Assembly (NCBI RefSeq): GCF_000972385.1
Contig: NZ_JXTE01000037.1
Coordinates: 1-64,000 of the forward strand
Source: Streptomyces sp. WM6386
Lineage (GTDB): Bacteria > Actinomycetota > Actinomycetes > Streptomycetales > Streptomycetaceae
Length of the DNA stretch: 64,000 bases
Reading direction: 5' to 3'
Shown piece after piece: positions 17,243 through 51,101 of this stretch (position 1 is its first letter; every line of letters begins with the position of its first letter). Position numbers and translations under genes: made by a program. The notes under the pieces were generated by a model. It was not told the origin of the DNA. It searched no databases and saw nothing but the letters and a program-made list of their open reading frames with translations.

Positions 17243-18318
17243 TCAACTGGTGCGCCGCGTCACGAACTCGGCCAGGGCCAGCAGTCCCCCCGCCGCCGCC
17301 GGCTCGGGCACCGCACGGGACAGTTCCGCCATCGCGCGGGCCATCCGGTCGGCCGCCTGGACCTGTGCCCAGTCACGTCCACCGGCCCGCTCGACGGCGA
17401 GTGCCGTCCGGTCCAGGTCCTCCTTCGCATACGGGGTCGCGTAGAGCTCCGCCAGTTCCGCGCCCGCCGGGGTGCCGGAGGCCAGCGCGGCGACCACCGG
17501 CAGGGACTTCTTGCGGACCGCGAGGTCGGCCCCGGCCGGTTTGCCGGTGTGGCGCGGGTCGCCCCATATGCCGATCACGTCGTCGATGAGCTGGAAGGCG
17601 AGTCCGGCCTCCCGGCCGAACGCGTCCAGCGCCTCGACGTCCTCCCGCGACGCGCCCGCGTACAGCGCGCCCAGCGCACAGGCACATCCGAGCAGCGCGC
17701 CGGTCTTGGCCTCGGCCATGGCGAGCACCTCGTCGACGGTGACCTCGCCGGGGCCCTGGGTCTCCATGGCCGTGTCCGCGTGCTGGCCGGCACAGAGTTC
17801 GACGACACAGGCCGTGAGCCGGGCGGCCGCGGCCCCGGCCGCCGGGTGCGGGTCCCGGGCGAGCAGCCCGAGGGCGAGCGCCTGGAGGGTATCCCCGGCG
17901 AGGATCGCGTCGGCGTCACCGAACACCGTCCACGCCGTGGGCCGGTGCCGTCGGGTGGTGTCCCGGTCCATCACGTCGTCGTGCAGCAGCGTGAAGTTGT
18001 GGACCAGCTCCACCGCCGCGGCCGCCCGCACGGCCACCTCCCGCGCCGCCGCTCCCCCAGTGCGGCGGCCGCGGTGAGGACGAGTGCGGGCCGTATCGCC
18101 TTGCCGGCGTTGCCCGCCGCCGGGGTGCCGTCGGCGTGCTCCCAGCCGAAGTGGTACAGCGCGATCCGGCGCATGGAGCCGGGGAGCGACTCGATCGCCT
18201 CGCGCAGCACGGGGTCGACCGACGCCCGGGCCCGCTCCAGGATCACCGCCGCCTCGTGCCCGTCGAGCGGCTCCGTCCCGGCAGGGTGCTGTGTCGCCTC
18301 CCTCATGAGCTCGGCCAT
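17243..18318 (-). pseudogene. Polyprenyl diphosphate synthase, frame broken by one base; likely encapsulin cargo
   Basis: This trans-isoprenyl diphosphate synthase would make a C10-C20 prenyl diphosphate. Its N-terminal part (MAELMREATQ to AAAALG) is in one frame and its catalytic part (VELVHNFTLLHDDVMD, later LIDDVIGIWGD, the two Asp-rich motifs) in another. The switch falls at a run of five C at 18054-18058 (five G in the sense strand); one added base joins both halves into exactly 359 codons with a normal sequence through the join. It may be a sequencing error, a real mutation or a frameshift site. ATG 18318 has GAGGGG upstream. In-frame GTG 18441 overlaps the encapsulin stop and would add 41 Pro/Ser/Thr-rich residues. 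Confidence 0.85.
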
Positions 18319-18431
18319 GGAGGTCCCCTCGGAGAGTCCGCGGACGGTGGCGTTTGTGCTGCGACTGGGCGCATACGACCGGGGTGTACCCGCCCGTGGG
18401 GGCGGGGACACGGTTCCCAGCTGCAGAAACG

Positions 18432-19838
18432 TCACCTCCACCGGCCGATCTCGACGTTCTCCAGCACGCCGAGCGCGTCCGGCACAAGCACCGCGGCCGA
18501 GTAGTACGCCGTCACCAGGTACTTGATGATCGCCTGCTCATTGATGCCCATGAACCGCACCGACAGGCTCGGCTCGATCTCGTCCGGGATACCGGCCTGC
18601 TGCAGACCGATGACGCCCTGCTCGGCCTCGCCGGTACGCATCGCGATGATCGAGGTCGTACGGGCCTCGGTGACCGGGATCTTGTTGCACGGGTAGATCG
18701 GCACCCCCCGCCAGGTGGGGATGCGGTTGCCGCCCACGTCGATGGTCTCGGGGACGAGTCCGCGCTTGTTGAGCTCACGCCCGATCGCGGAGATCGCGCG
18801 CGGATGCGCGAGCAGCAGCTTGGTGCCGCGCCGCCTGCTGAGGAGCTCGTCCAGGTCGTCGGGGCTGGGCACGCCGTCGTGCGGCTGGATGCGCTGGTCG
18901 TACTCGCAGTTGCTGAGCAGCCCGAACTCCCGGTTGTTGACGAGCTCGTGCTCCTGGCGCTCCTTCAACGCCTCCACGGTCAGCCTCAGTTGCTGCTCGG
19001 TCTGGTTCATCGGCTGGTTGTAGAGGTCGGCCACGCGTGAGTGGATGCGCAACACCGTCTGGGCCACGCTCAGTTCGTACTCACGCGGCCGGGCCTCGTA
19101 GTCCACGAAGGTGTGCGGGATGTCCGGCTCACCGCTGTGGCCGGCCGCGAGGTCGATCGCCTTCTCACCGTATTTGTTGGTGCTCTGCTCCGGGATCGCG
19201 CGCAGCGCCTGGAGGTGCTCACGCAGGGAGTCGGTGCGCTCCGCGACCTGTTCGACGGCGTTGCGCGGAAGGACGAGCACCGTGCAGCCGGTGACCGCGC
19301 GAGCGGTGTACTCCCAGATGGCCTCGGGGTCCAGCAGCGCCTGGTCGCCGAAGTAGGCGCCGTCGGCGAGGACTCCGAGGACGGCGTCGTCGCCGTAGGG
19401 GCCCGTGCCGATCTTCTCCACCCTGCCGTGCGCCAGCAGGAAGACCACGTCGGCCTGGCTGCCGAACGAGGCGATCACGTCCCCCGCCGCGAACTCGCGC
19501 TGCTCACACCGGCGGGCGAGCTCCGTGAGCACCTCCTCGTCCTCGTACGACCGAAGCGCCGGCAGTTCGCACAGTTCCTCCGGAATGACCTCGACCCGAT
19601 CGCCCGTCTTCACAAAAGTGACCCGGCCATCCCCCACGGCGTAGGTCAGCCGCCGGTTCACGCGGTACGTACCGCCTTGAACATTCACCCAGGGCAGCGT
19701 GCGCAGCAGCCAGCGAGAGCTGATCTCCTGCATCTGGGGTGCGGACTTGGTGGTGGTGGCCAGGTTCCGCGCGGCCGCCGTGCCGAGACTCTGCTGCGGC
19801 CGGCCCTGCTCGGTGCGGACCTCTTCGCCTACCGACAT
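18432..19838 (-). CDS. Family 2B encapsulin shell protein with cyclic-nucleotide-binding-like domain
   Basis: The 468-aa protein is often annotated as Crp-like or nucleotide-binding but reads as a family 2B encapsulin: an N-terminal arm and first shell part (residues 1-95), an inserted cNMP-binding-like domain (about 95-205, with [18 protein letters not shown] and [12 protein letters not shown]), then an SrpI/HK97-like shell region (240-468, with [24 protein letters not shown] and [14 protein letters not shown]). It lacks the HTH of a Crp regulator. The phosphate-binding cassette is altered (GDQALL for GExALL), so ligand binding is uncertain. ATG 19838 has GGGAGGG 9 bases upstream; the longer frame to 20162 has none. 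The prenyl synthase follows, with a possible 10-base overlap. Confidence 0.85.
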
Positions 19839-23289: not shown

Positions 23290-23351
23290 GGTTCTCGCCC
23301 GCCCTCGTTTTTCCGCGCGGCCTTCCGCGCGGCCGTCGTAATCTGGCAATC

Positions 23352-23662: not shown

Positions 23663-23871
23663 GTCAACCCGGCGCGCGTTCTTCCCAATTGGAGCCGCAG
23701 ACCCCTAGACACGGAGCGTGTCCACAGTTTTACTGTGAGTGACGCCGAGGGGTTGGGGTCCTGGGGACAGGAAAGTTGAGAGCGCGATAGCGTCACCGCT
23801 GAACCACACTTCGCGTTACCCCGGGGGGCGACCCTCGGCCCCGAAAAGCTTGTACCACCTTGGAGGTGAGG

Positions 23872-24285
23872 GTGTCCCAGATCGCAGGCGAGCCCGCGAC
23901 CCAGGACTTCGTGGAAGTCCGGCTGCCGGCTGCGGGTGCCTACCTGTCGGTGCTGCGTACGGCGACTGCCGGCCTCGCGGCCCGTTTGGACTTCACCCTC
24001 GACGAGATCGAGGACCTGCGCATCGCGGTGGACGAGGCCTGCGCGATCCTGCTCCAGCAGGCCGTGCCCGGCTCGGTGCTCAGTTGTGTCTTCCGCCTCG
24101 TCGACGACTCACTCGAGGTCACCGTCTCGGCGCCGACCACGGACGGTCACGCCCCCGCGCGTGACACCTTCGCCTGGACCGTCCTGTCCGCTCTCGCGGG
24201 CAAGGTCTCCTCAGCCGTGGACGACGACAAAACCGTTTCGATCAGCCTCTACAAACAGCGCGGCGCGGGACCCGGGCCGGCGTGA
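23872..24285 (+). CDS. prsH: Anti-sigma factor of the RsbW type (PrsH/UshX)
   Basis: The 137-aa GHKL-fold anti-sigma factor would bind and hold SigH. It shows the N-box ATP-site region DEIEDLRIAVDEACAILL and ends with DDKTVSISLYKQ. Start GTG 23872 has GGAGGTGAG upstream. The GTGA at its end overlaps the sigH start, so translation is coupled. In S. coelicolor this partner of SigH is released by anti-anti-sigma factors during osmotic stress. Confidence 0.9.
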   Translation: MSQIAGEPATQDFVEVRLPAAGAYLSVLRTATAGLAARLDFTLDEIEDLRIAVDEACAILLQQAVPGSVLSCVFRLVDDSLEVTVSAPTTDGHAPARDTFAWTVLSALAGKVSSAVDDDKTVSISLYKQRGAGPGPA

Positions 24286-25379
24286 GGACAGGGGACGGGC
24301 CGGTGCGTGACGAAGAGCGCGGCACACGGGAGCTGCCGACCGAGGGCACAGGCGGGTCCCGACGCACGGGGGACGGCGTCAACAGCATCCCCGAACAGGC
24401 CCGGCCGCATCCGGAGGACGACTCGCCGGAGGCCGGCTTCCTGGACGACGGGCAGCGGGATCAGGAAGGTGCCGTGCAGAGCGTGCCTCTGGACGGACGG
24501 ATCGGGGTCTCCCCTGTCCGAGCAGAGACGAGGGCTCGGGGAAGGGCGACGGGCGGGACGATGAGCGAGCACCAGCGAGACGATCAACAGGGCGCGCAGA
24601 GCGGGCAGGCCACGCAGCACAACCCTCAGGACCGCAGCGGAGCACGCGCGCTGTTCATCGAGCTGCGCAAGCTGCAGGACGGCAGCACGGAGTACGCGGA
24701 CCTGCGCAACCGGCTGGTCCGTATGCACCTGCCGCTCGTCGAGCACCTCGCGCGCCGCTTCCGCAACCGCGGCGAGCCGCTGGACGATCTGACCCAGGTC
24801 GCCACCATCGGCCTGATCAAGTCGGTCGACCGCTTCGACCCGGAGCGTGGCGTCGAGTTCTCGACGTACGCGACCCCGACGGTCGTCGGCGAGATCAAGC
24901 GGCATTTCCGGGACAAGGGCTGGGCGGTCCGCGTCCCGCGCAGGCTCCAGGAACTGCGCCTCGCGCTCACCACGGCGACGGCGGAGCTCTCGCAACTGCA
25001 CGGCCGCTCCCCCACGGTCCACGAGCTGGCCGAGAAGCTGGGCATCTCGGAGGAGGAGGTCCTGGAGGGCCTGGAGTCCGCCAACGCGTACTCCACGCTG
25101 TCCCTGGACGTCCCGGACACCGACGACGAGTCACCGGCGGTGGCGGACACCCTGGGCGCGGAGGACGAGGCGCTGGAGGGCGTCGAGTACCGCGAGTCGC
25201 TCAAGCCGCTGCTCGAGGACCTGCCGCCGCGCGAGAAGCGGATCCTGCTGCTGCGGTTCTTCGGCAACATGACGCAGTCGCAGATCGCGCAGGAGGTCGG
25301 CATCTCGCAGATGCATGTCTCCCGGCTGCTGGCGCGGACGCTGGCGCAGCTGCGGGAGAAGCTCCTGGTGGAGGAGTAG
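24282..25379 (+). CDS. sigH: Stress sigma factor SigH (SigB/SigF family)
   Basis: The 365-aa sigma factor serves osmotic stress response and septation in S. coelicolor. The core (from about residue 115) has region 2 (DDLTQVATIGLIKSVDRFDP, EFSTYATPTVVGEIKRHFRD), region 3 and region 4 (RILLLRFFGNMTQSQIAQEVG, SQMHVSRLLARTL). The first 93 residues are an acidic, disordered extension. GTG 24282 overlaps prsH; in-frame starts at GTG 24303 and ATG 24561 (SEHQRDDQQ) could give shorter forms, matching the several SigH sizes known in S. coelicolor. Confidence 0.93.
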   Translation: MRTGDGPVRDEERGTRELPTEGTGGSRRTGDGVNSIPEQARPHPEDDSPEAGFLDDGQRDQEGAVQSVPLDGRIGVSPVRAETRARGRATGGTMSEHQRDDQQGAQSGQATQHNPQDRSGARALFIELRKLQDGSTEYADLRNRLVRMHLPLVEHLARRFRNRGEPLDDLTQVATIGLIKSVDRFDPERGVEFSTYATPTVVGEIKRHFRDKGWAVRVPRRLQELRLALTTATAELSQLHGRSPTVHELAEKLGISEEEVLEGLESANAYSTLSLDVPDTDDESPAVADTLGAEDEALEGVEYRESLKPLLEDLPPREKRILLLRFFGNMTQSQIAQEVGISQMHVSRLLARTLAQLREKLLVEE

Positions 25380-48642: not shown

Positions 48643-50019
48643 TCACCTCGCGACGGGCCGCAGCAGCAGCTTGTGCGGGCGGAGCGTGATCCCCACCCGC
48701 GTCCCGTCGTCGGAGCCCGACACCTGCTCGAAGCGGTACTTCGTCGCGATGGCCGCCGTGATCAGCGACAGCTGCGCCATCGAGAAGTGGTCGCTCGGGC
48801 ACTTGCGGTTGCCCACGCTGAACGGACTCATGGCGTATTTCGGCACCTCCTTGACCCGCTCCGGAAGCCAGCGGTCGGGGTCGAACTCCAGGTTGCCCTT
48901 GTACGACTTCGCATCGCGCTGGATCGCGTACGGGCTGTACACGATGTCGGCACCGGCCGGAATGCGATACCCACCGAGTTCCGTGTCGGCGACCGCCCGG
49001 CGCGTCAATATCCACACGGCGGGGCGCAAACGCATGGCCTCGATGACGACATTGTTCGTGTGGGTCAGCGCCCGGACATCCTCGAATGCGACAGGACGGC
49101 CGCCCGTTACGGATTGAACCTCCTCGCACACCCTGTCCGCGTGTTCCGGATGTTCCGCGAGCACTTGGAGCAGCCACATGATCGTGGAGGCCACTGTTTC
49201 GCTGCCCGGGGTGAGTATGGCGACCACCTGGTCGTGGATCTCCTGTTCCCCGATGGGGTCGCCATTGTCGTCCTTCGCCTCCAGCAATGCCGTCAGCAAA
49301 TCGTCCGGCTTTTGACCAGATGCGCGGCGCTCGGCGACGATCTCGTCGACCAGCAGATGCAAATCGGCCAGGGCCGTGTTGAATTTGCGGTTGGGCGGCA
49401 GGGGCAGGTTGTACAGCGGTCCGAGCGGGACGACCATCCGCCGGTACATGCCGCGGAAGACGGTGGCGAGCGCCACGCACAGCCGCTCGGCCCGCTCGTC
49501 CATGAAGTCGCCGCGCAGCAGACAGCGGGCCGCGATGCGCACCGCCACCCGGAAGGACTCGGAGGTGCAGTCGATGGTCTCGCCGGGCTGCCAGCGCTCG
49601 GTGAGGGCGTGCGCCTCCTCCTCCATGATCGACCCGTATCCGGGTATCGCGTCGAGCCGGAACGCGGGCTGGATGGTGCGCCGTTGGCGCCGGTGGCGCG
49701 GGCCGTTGGCGGTGGCCACGCCCTCCTTGCCGAGCAGGCCCTCCAGGGACTGCCAGAGCGGCCCGTCGATGACGTAGTCGGGGTTGAGCGCCATGGCCCC
49801 GGTGAGGGCCGGTGTGGTGACGGCGTACACCGTCTTGGGGCCGAGCTTGAGCCGTACGACATCGCCGTGGTCACGCAGCTGGGACATGAAGGCCAGCGGA
49901 TCCCTCAGCAGCTTCAGCCCGTGCCCGAGGACCGGGACGGCCCCTCCCGCGAGGACCGGTTCACGCGGCCCGGGCCCCGGTGTCATCGGGGTTTCGGGCT
50001 TCACAGACTCGACGGTCAT
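48643..50019 (-). CDS. Cytochrome P450 CYP170-type, albaflavenone synthase
   Basis: The 458-aa P450 oxidises epi-isozizaene to albaflavenone. It shows the I-helix [10 protein letters not shown], the ExxR motif EAMRLRP and the heme loop [14 protein letters not shown]170A1 of S. coelicolor has a second, farnesene-synthase site in the same protein; a DD-rich stretch, [18 protein letters not shown], is present here, but whether it works is unknown. ATG 50019 overlaps the terpene synthase stop by four bases, giving coupled synthesis. The stop lies close to the nrdS end on the opposite strand. Confidence 0.94.
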
Positions 50020-51101
50020 TTCTCACCTGCCGTTTCGTTGTTGACGTACGGGGGTGTGGACCGGTCGTCCCAGCTGTCGACCATGTAGCGGCCGGACTCG
50101 TGGTGGAACCAGTAGACGGTGCTGAACCAGTTGCGCATATTGCCGACACAGGCCCGCACGGTGGCGCTCAGGTCTTTTCCGCGCAGGGTTCCGTCGTCGA
50201 GCGACGCGGCGAACCGCAGGGCTGACTTCTCGGCGACAAGGAATTCACTGATGCATTCCTCGACCCGTCGCCTGACTTCCCTTATGGCCTCCTCGAGTGT
50301 CAGCCCCTCGTGTTTGATGAGGCTGATCCCGAGATTGTGGACCTCGTCGCCCGCTATTTCCTTCGGCAGTGAACAGAGGTCGTTGTACCAGGCGGCGAAT
50401 TCCTGGCTCAGGAGTGCCGCCCGCCGATATGCCGGGTGTTTCCGAACCCGGTCCGGGAGTTCCCGGCCCGCGCTCGGCTCCAGAAGGTCGGTCCAGATCC
50501 AGTGCGCGAAAGTGAGGCGCCGGAGCGCGAGGTATTCCTCGACGGTCGGCACGACACCTTCGGTGCGGTTGCGGAATTCCCGGTCGTACGCCTCGATCAC
50601 CGAGTGGAAGTGCCGGGCGAACCGTGCGTTCCAGGTGCCGGGCAGGAACGCGTACAGCCGGACCATGGTGTCGGCGAACGCGGCGACCAGGGGATCCTCG
50701 TGGTGCAGATGCTCCTGGGGGGAGTCGAGTGCCGCGTCCAACCGGTACCTGAGCCGCCGCCAGGCCTCGCGCCGGTGGTGGACGATGTCGCGGTCGTGCC
50801 GGTCGTCCCAGACGAAGAACCACGCGCTGTAGTCCGCTATCGCCTGGAGGACCTCGTCGGGGGCGCCCAGGTAGTAGCCCGCCATGAGGTCCGTGTAGCA
50901 AAGACCGTCGGCATATTCCTCCACCTTGTCCGCCGGCATGAGCCGCTTTTCCAGCAGCCAGGTGCGTGTCTTCTCCTGGAGCTGGGGCCAATACGAGTGG
51001 AGTTGCCGGGGAAACGCCGCCTCGATCACCGGGAGAGAGAGCGACGGTGGGACCGCGATCGCTGTCGGTGTCGATGTGGTGCCGTGTGAGAAAGCATGCA
51101 C
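50016..51101 (-). CDS. eizA: Epi-isozizaene synthase (class I sesquiterpene cyclase)
   Basis: The 361-aa cyclase converts farnesyl diphosphate to epi-isozizaene. The Asp-rich metal motif DDRHD is at residues 99-103, the NSE motif NDLCSLPKE near 240, and the RY pair SGRYM near the C-terminus. Length and sequence match EizA. The start is GTG 51101 (MHAFSHG), with GAGAGGGG upstream. With the following P450 it makes the antibiotic/odorant albaflavenone. Confidence 0.96.

Follow-up and report, generated by a model that had tools for sequence, protein, structure and literature searches.

A family 2B encapsulin shell gene followed by a frame-broken prenyl synthase gene in Streptomyces sp. WM6386

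The window (the whole analysed stretch of 64,000 nucleotides from Streptomyces sp. WM6386) most probably contains an eshB-type family 2B encapsulin locus with a downstream prenyl synthase as its usual cargo; we put the probability of this reading at about 0.87. Such a system has already been described and is widespread, and nothing about the locus is unusual in kind. Among family 2B operons, PMC8346489 counts 900 that contain polyprenyl transferases, 888 of these coming from Actinobacteria, and PMC8049743 gives the polyprenyl diphosphate synthase gene as the commonest neighbour of family 2b shell genes. The additions made here are modest: two relatives keep the shell gene without an adjacent synthase gene, one of their genomes being listed as 100% complete; about half of the loci have a hairpin between the two genes; and a terpene cyclase encoded elsewhere in the source genome falls just short of the cut-off of an encapsulin-cargo model. 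The distinguished features are as follows (window positions).

17243..18058, minus strand: 3′ part of the prenyl synthase gene, with an Asp-rich DDVMD motif, in another frame than the 5′ part (NF041169 positions 66-333, 391 bits; PF00348, 175 bits)
18049..18318, minus strand: 5′ part of the prenyl synthase gene, frame broken at its end (NF041169 positions 2-67/68, 82-85 bits)
18385..18413, minus strand: intercistronic hairpin, about 20 nt past the shell stop codon (stem counts, covariation)
18432..19838, minus strand: gene of the eshB-type family 2B encapsulin shell protein of 468 residues (NF041163 and PDB 9bhu matches)
18441..19193, minus strand: HK97/SrpI-like shell domain, residues 216-466 (PF19307, 452 bits, Pfam)
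19236..19499, minus strand: cyclic-nucleotide-like domain, residues 114-201, with W175/E176 in the cassette (PF00027, 61 bits, Pfam)
19725..19790, minus strand: conserved N-terminal arm, residues 17-38 (mean pairwise identity 0.955, 29 aligned sequences)
23860-25379, same window: SigB/F-type sigma factor gene and anti-sigma-like gene
48643-51101, minus strand: epi-isozizaene synthase and P450 genes (NF045483, 742 bits, cut-off 675)

The product of 18432-19838 scores 771 bits on the NCBIfam model of family 2B encapsulin shell proteins (NF041163, cut-off 400), while on the family 2A model the same protein reaches 352 bits, below the cut-off of 380. Three solved shells, namely PDB 9bhu (residues 6-467, E=6.9e-194), 9bix (9-465) and 9bje (14-465), can be aligned with it over nearly its whole length, with E values ranging from 7e-194 to 1e-184. 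The two nearest proteins among the matches listed (the best 120 of 8000 scored) are 95% identical to it, and NCBI names both family 2B encapsulin nanocompartment shell protein. Its recognition as a family 2B shell is real and far beyond chance. A single family 2B shell gene lies above the cut-off in the source genome (G000), the second match scoring 44 bits, and the locus has one shell gene, not the two in one operon that characterize two-component systems. Besides the SrpI-like and cNMP_binding domains, no Pfam family, DNA-binding families included, was matched at E values up to 0.1. Shell family, domain insertion and a single shell gene in the source genome are established at the level of sequence. 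Since the AlphaFold model built from 29 close homologues is poor outside the cyclic-nucleotide-like domain (mean pLDDT 52), the assignment of the shell fold rests on homology.

These results bear out most of what the initial annotation had said of this gene. It had called the product a family 2B encapsulin, proposed a profile search against that family and made the claim dependent on an encapsulin match within residues 240-468; the search was run, NF041163 was passed (771 against 400 bits), the solved shells aligned and the SrpI-like match covers residues 216-466. The same match agrees with the claim that the final ~230 residues are SrpI-like, the lack of a DNA-binding domain holds for Pfam at E up to 0.1, and an insertion after residue 95 is consistent with a cyclic-nucleotide-like match at 114-201 that starts somewhere past ~95.

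Residues 335-338 of the shell protein read RRRG. In PMC12407261 the self-assembling Enc2 of S. lydicus has RRRK at this place and Enc1 has TVWK, so in sequence the window protein resembles the Enc2 type, not Enc1. By these diagnostic motifs, 9bix is taken to be Enc2 of S. lydicus and 9bje to be its Enc1. The window protein is like the S. lydicus shells in the RRR stretch of Enc2 and in the Trp of the cassette, whereas S. lydicus has two shell components (a xylulose kinase system) and the window locus one shell gene. Residues 17-38 are called an arm by analogy with the shells described in PMC12407261. The beginning of this segment (residues 17-24, SLGTAAAR; window 19766-19790) contains LGTAAAR, which lies near the terpene-cyclase cargo consensus GPTGLGTSAAR; on sequence, mimicry of the arm by cargo is possible.

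Residues Trp175 and Glu176 of the phosphate cassette are found in all 29 aligned relatives, and the position equivalent to 175 is also Trp in the three solved shells. We take the canonical Arg/Ser of the CRP phosphate-binding cassette to correspond to these two residues (aligned by eye); on that alignment the Arg and Ser/Thr by which cAMP or cGMP binding is recognized are replaced by W175 and E176. Residues 96-212 are the most variable segment measured, with a pairwise identity of 0.77 vs 0.92 for residues 241-468 (29 sequences). According to PMC12407261, work on this domain has shown that it binds no cyclic nucleotides. The altered cassette had been recognized in the initial annotation and is borne out in 29/29 sequences, but gating of the shell by a nucleotide ligand, suggested there too, finds no support: the Trp-Glu cassette and the reported non-binding weaken it, and a cyclic-nucleotide gate is unlikely.

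The gene downstream of the shell gene encodes a prenyl synthase whose two parts occupy different frames. NF041169 (encapsulin cargo polyprenyl transferase, cut-off 450) matches with its positions 2-68 at 18049-18249 and with positions 66-333 at 17249-18058, and the pieces, at 85 and 391 bits, each remain below the cut-off; the frame breaks at about 18049-18058, at a G-run. Because the halves lie in different frames, the long open reading frame 17243-18487 starts in the wrong one, and the ATG at 18318-18316 is the likely start codon. The nearest relative (L007) has an intact orthologue scoring 487 bits on NF041169, above the cut-off of 450. The identification of the next gene as a trans-prenyl synthase, made in the initial annotation, therefore stands for its 3′ part, which carries PF00348, and fails for a whole gene, the frame break having gone unnoticed there. 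Orthology and frame break are both plain from the sequence comparison. With the frame broken in the assembly, function of the shell/synthase pair in the source genome is not established.

A recent mutation or an isolated, local error fits the frame break best, and an assembly error confined to the G-run is conceivable. An assembly-wide error was rejected: when 52 open reading frames of L007 were compared over the 64 kb, seven were flagged, and on inspection by eye none of these was a clear mid-gene split; they appeared to be N-terminal extensions, fused reading frames or spurious antisense reading frames. The synthase gene stood outside this comparison and was assessed in the survey of named relatives. 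One flagged reading frame, near the N-terminus of an antiporter gene of the same window (about 23306-23313), could represent a second frame change. Of 23 comparisons with other members of the group, 21 place the part of the window synthase past the break no farther from them than that of L007. When the window and L007 are compared with each other, dN is 0.067 for the synthase core vs 0.025 for the shell, a ratio of 2.7 that exceeds the group median of 1.4.

Pairing of the two genes was examined in two sets of relatives, both selected on the shell match, so that the frequency of shell breakage is beyond their reach. The named set comprises the best 80 of 581 relatives, chosen for a good shell match and not at random; 78 could be judged, the sequences of L042 and L075 being too short. 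In 77 of these 78 loci the shell gene is followed by synthase-coding DNA, which forms one open frame in 74, is split in L053 and L079 and is cut by a contig end in L059. The one locus with no synthase gene beside the shell gene, L008, comes from a metagenome bin and by eye retains an apparent remnant of the synthase 3′ end. In the genus-drawn set (29 loci, L088-L116, of which one ends too soon; genomes may be shared with the named set) 27 of the 28 loci that could be judged contain synthase DNA, which in L093 and L098 runs off the end of the stretch; it is missing beside the shell gene in L090, as confirmed on a 5.7-kb stretch. The central claim of the initial annotation, a 2B shell whose likely cargo is a prenyl synthase, is upheld by NF041163, by the L007 orthologue and by the pairing in 77/78 loci, while the broken synthase frame tells against it in this assembly.

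Genome G141 (two contigs, listed as 100% complete) has an intact shell gene (locus L135, 768 bits) and no orthologous synthase gene, the remaining paralogues being at most 53% identical; G140 keeps the orthologue (84% identity). The two genomes form a natural comparison pair. Together with the window locus, the relatives make testable the loading of the synthase, the ligand, if any, of the degenerate nucleotide-like domain and the retention of the shell in G141 after loss of the synthase.

Both genes are under purifying constraint among the relatives, as estimated from codon substitutions. In a near group of 24 loci (276 pairs), picked by eye and not from a tree, the synthase core has a median dN/dS of 0.19 and the shell one of 0.18; outside this group (2140 pairs) both medians are 0.20.

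Cargo might also be encoded away from the shell gene, and the source genome was screened with the models of known cargo types. A second prenyl synthase, whose NF041169 score (396 bits) is close to that found in the window, is encoded on C1; it is flanked by what we presume to be squalene/hopanoid pathway genes. A two-domain terpene cyclase encoded on C346 (L142), presumably a geosmin synthase, reaches 1148 bits on the model of encapsulin cargo terpene cyclases (NF041168), just below its cut-off of 1200. The stretch between its domains contains GLTGPGTSAA, with no repeat of it at the C-terminus. This resembles GPTGLGTSAAR, given as the consensus of terpene-cyclase cargos in PMC8346489. At the DNA level, the match of C346 to the motif pattern required two mismatches and was no better than chance, and the gene is not adjacent to a shell gene. 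Over the whole source genome, NF041167 gave at best 47.5 bits (cut-off 400) and NF041166 at best 550 bits (cut-off 800), with its N-terminal 222 positions unmatched. The GPTGLGT DNA pattern occurs once in the genome, as does a reversed control, in a gene for what we take to be a secreted protease. Judged from these sequences, an unlinked cargo such as the C346 cyclase is possible.

These observations bear on an improbable, though not negligible, alternative, namely that the shell of this lineage is no longer coupled to the prenyl synthase and serves another cargo (e.g. the C346 cyclase) or a cargo-independent role. The frame break in the window and the gene losses elsewhere would then be stages of uncoupling, a view to which the split frames of L053 and L079 and the absence of the synthase gene beside the shell gene in L008, and of any orthologue in G141 (paralogues at 53% or less), lend themselves, as do the near-cut-off score of the C346 cyclase and the likeness of its GLTGPGTSAA to the cargo consensus. 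However, the synthase is intact in 74/78 judgeable named loci and constrained among relatives, while the cyclase falls below its cut-off, lies away from the shell gene and has a motif at chance level in DNA; nor does NF041167 or NF041166 have anything above cut-off.

The old view of EshA would instead make the product of 18432-19838 a CRP/FNR-type regulator or a ppGpp-related cyclic-nucleotide-binding protein. Its Pfam cNMP domain (61 bits) accords with this, and a 2019 review describes EshA as cAMP-binding and needed for (p)ppGpp synthesis (PMC6627660), but a protein lacking a DNA-binding domain, having a shell domain of 452 bits and matching solved shells nearly end to end is scarcely credible in such a role, and PMC12407261 cites evidence that domains of this kind bind no cyclic nucleotides.

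For the encapsulin locus, the following mechanism is proposed. The single-component HK97-fold shell is predicted to form a T=1 assembly of 60 subunits, with a size of about 28 nm by analogy with S. lydicus Enc2 and with the cyclic-nucleotide-like domains placed outside the shell, above the two-fold pores. The usual cargo would be the all-trans prenyl diphosphate synthase of the adjacent gene, probably one that makes geranylgeranyl diphosphate; its short N-terminus would mediate loading, and the intercistronic hairpin may hold the cargo below the level of the shell. The pores could be gated by a ligand other than a cyclic nucleotide. The length of prenyl synthase products is governed by an aromatic residue five positions before the first Asp motif, and by this rule the product is probably geranylgeranyl diphosphate. 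A literature search in a library without many subscription papers and all preprints turned up no experiment in which a prenyl synthase was loaded into a family 2B shell.

Polyprenyl transferase cargos are described in PMC8346489 as having a disordered N-terminal domain of 50-100 residues and no conserved motif. In the window synthase just 25 residues, counted from the ATG at 18318, precede the conserved ILERARASVDP, and an upstream start is possible. Extended by long repeats (such as PPLHGPAPRPET), the synthase N-termini of L017, L097 and L098 are roughly 100 residues long or longer. A segment resembling ERRxPIGTQ was found in 29 of 92 synthase N-termini, e.g. those of L026, L028, L044, L045 and L071 (shuffled mean 1.9, maximum 6), with a pattern written after the sequences had been seen, two loci dropped for want of an anchor and relatedness uncorrected. 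As the pattern is post hoc and the window synthase does not contain the segment, a shared loading tag is not claimed.

An alternative start, a GTG overlapping the shell stop codon, is unlikely in the near group, where substitutions between the shell stop codon and the ATG are equally frequent at the three codon positions (0.190, 0.193 and 0.192; 15 loci). In the last 60 shell codons, used as a control, the corresponding values are 0.015, 0.018 and 0.204; unaligned indels made a second control, run on synthase codons, unusable. Contrary signs are that where spacers of the near group vary in length, they do so in steps of three nucleotides (L013, L017, L043, L091 and L098), and that L104 has no ATG at the position of the synthase start. 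In the short-spacer relatives L026, L027, L029 and L030 the GTG at the overlap is the sole start before the core. The sequences thus leave some slight room for an upstream start.

In an unselected count over 110 loci, the spacer between the two genes contains a stem of at least 10 pairs in 49, vs 7.7 expected from shuffles. Four hairpin pairs show changes on both sides, and one of 500 shuffles scored as high (26 loci); the test is biased, since these 26 loci (23 distinct) were chosen as showing the hairpin. When the partners were shifted by -2, covariation scored just as high (0.114 vs 0.111), though pairs were fewer (69% vs 92.5%). A simple terminator scan did not call the intercistronic hairpin.

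The neighbouring genes of the window presumably match SCO5222-SCO5250 of S. coelicolor, in which we take a polyprenyl synthetase gene to adjoin eshB. Gene order suggests that the locus is the counterpart of eshB/SCO5249 (SCO5249 is named eshB in PMC3878966). The presumed likeness lies in neighbours and domain layout, and the window locus differs in its broken synthase frame. The EshA of Streptomyces linked to 2-MIB genes belongs to the same shell family and likewise has a terpenoid-related neighbour; its cargo is a terpene cyclase with a GPTGLGT motif, whereas the window locus has a prenyl synthase, a cargo type with no conserved motif according to PMC8346489. Farther along the window, 48643-51101 is presumably an albaflavenone-type operon. 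Its epi-isozizaene synthase scores far below cut-off on the encapsulin terpene-cyclase cargo models and is not proposed as encapsulin cargo.

The plus strand opposite the shell gene (window 19300-19803) matches Rfam family RF02735 (Sernc350) with 143.5 bits, and a match is also present in all three relatives searched. An antisense RNA was rejected as a candidate: divergence at fourfold sites is not lower there (0.343 vs 0.328 at residues 181-468; 98 loci), and for this reason the match probably reflects conservation of the protein. Fourfold-site divergence is low (0.098) in the first 11 shell codons. In Saccharopolyspora, sernc350 is antisense to SACE_3976, which encodes a cNMP-domain protein in a terpene cluster (PMC3827479); SACE_3976 may therefore be another family 2B shell gene.
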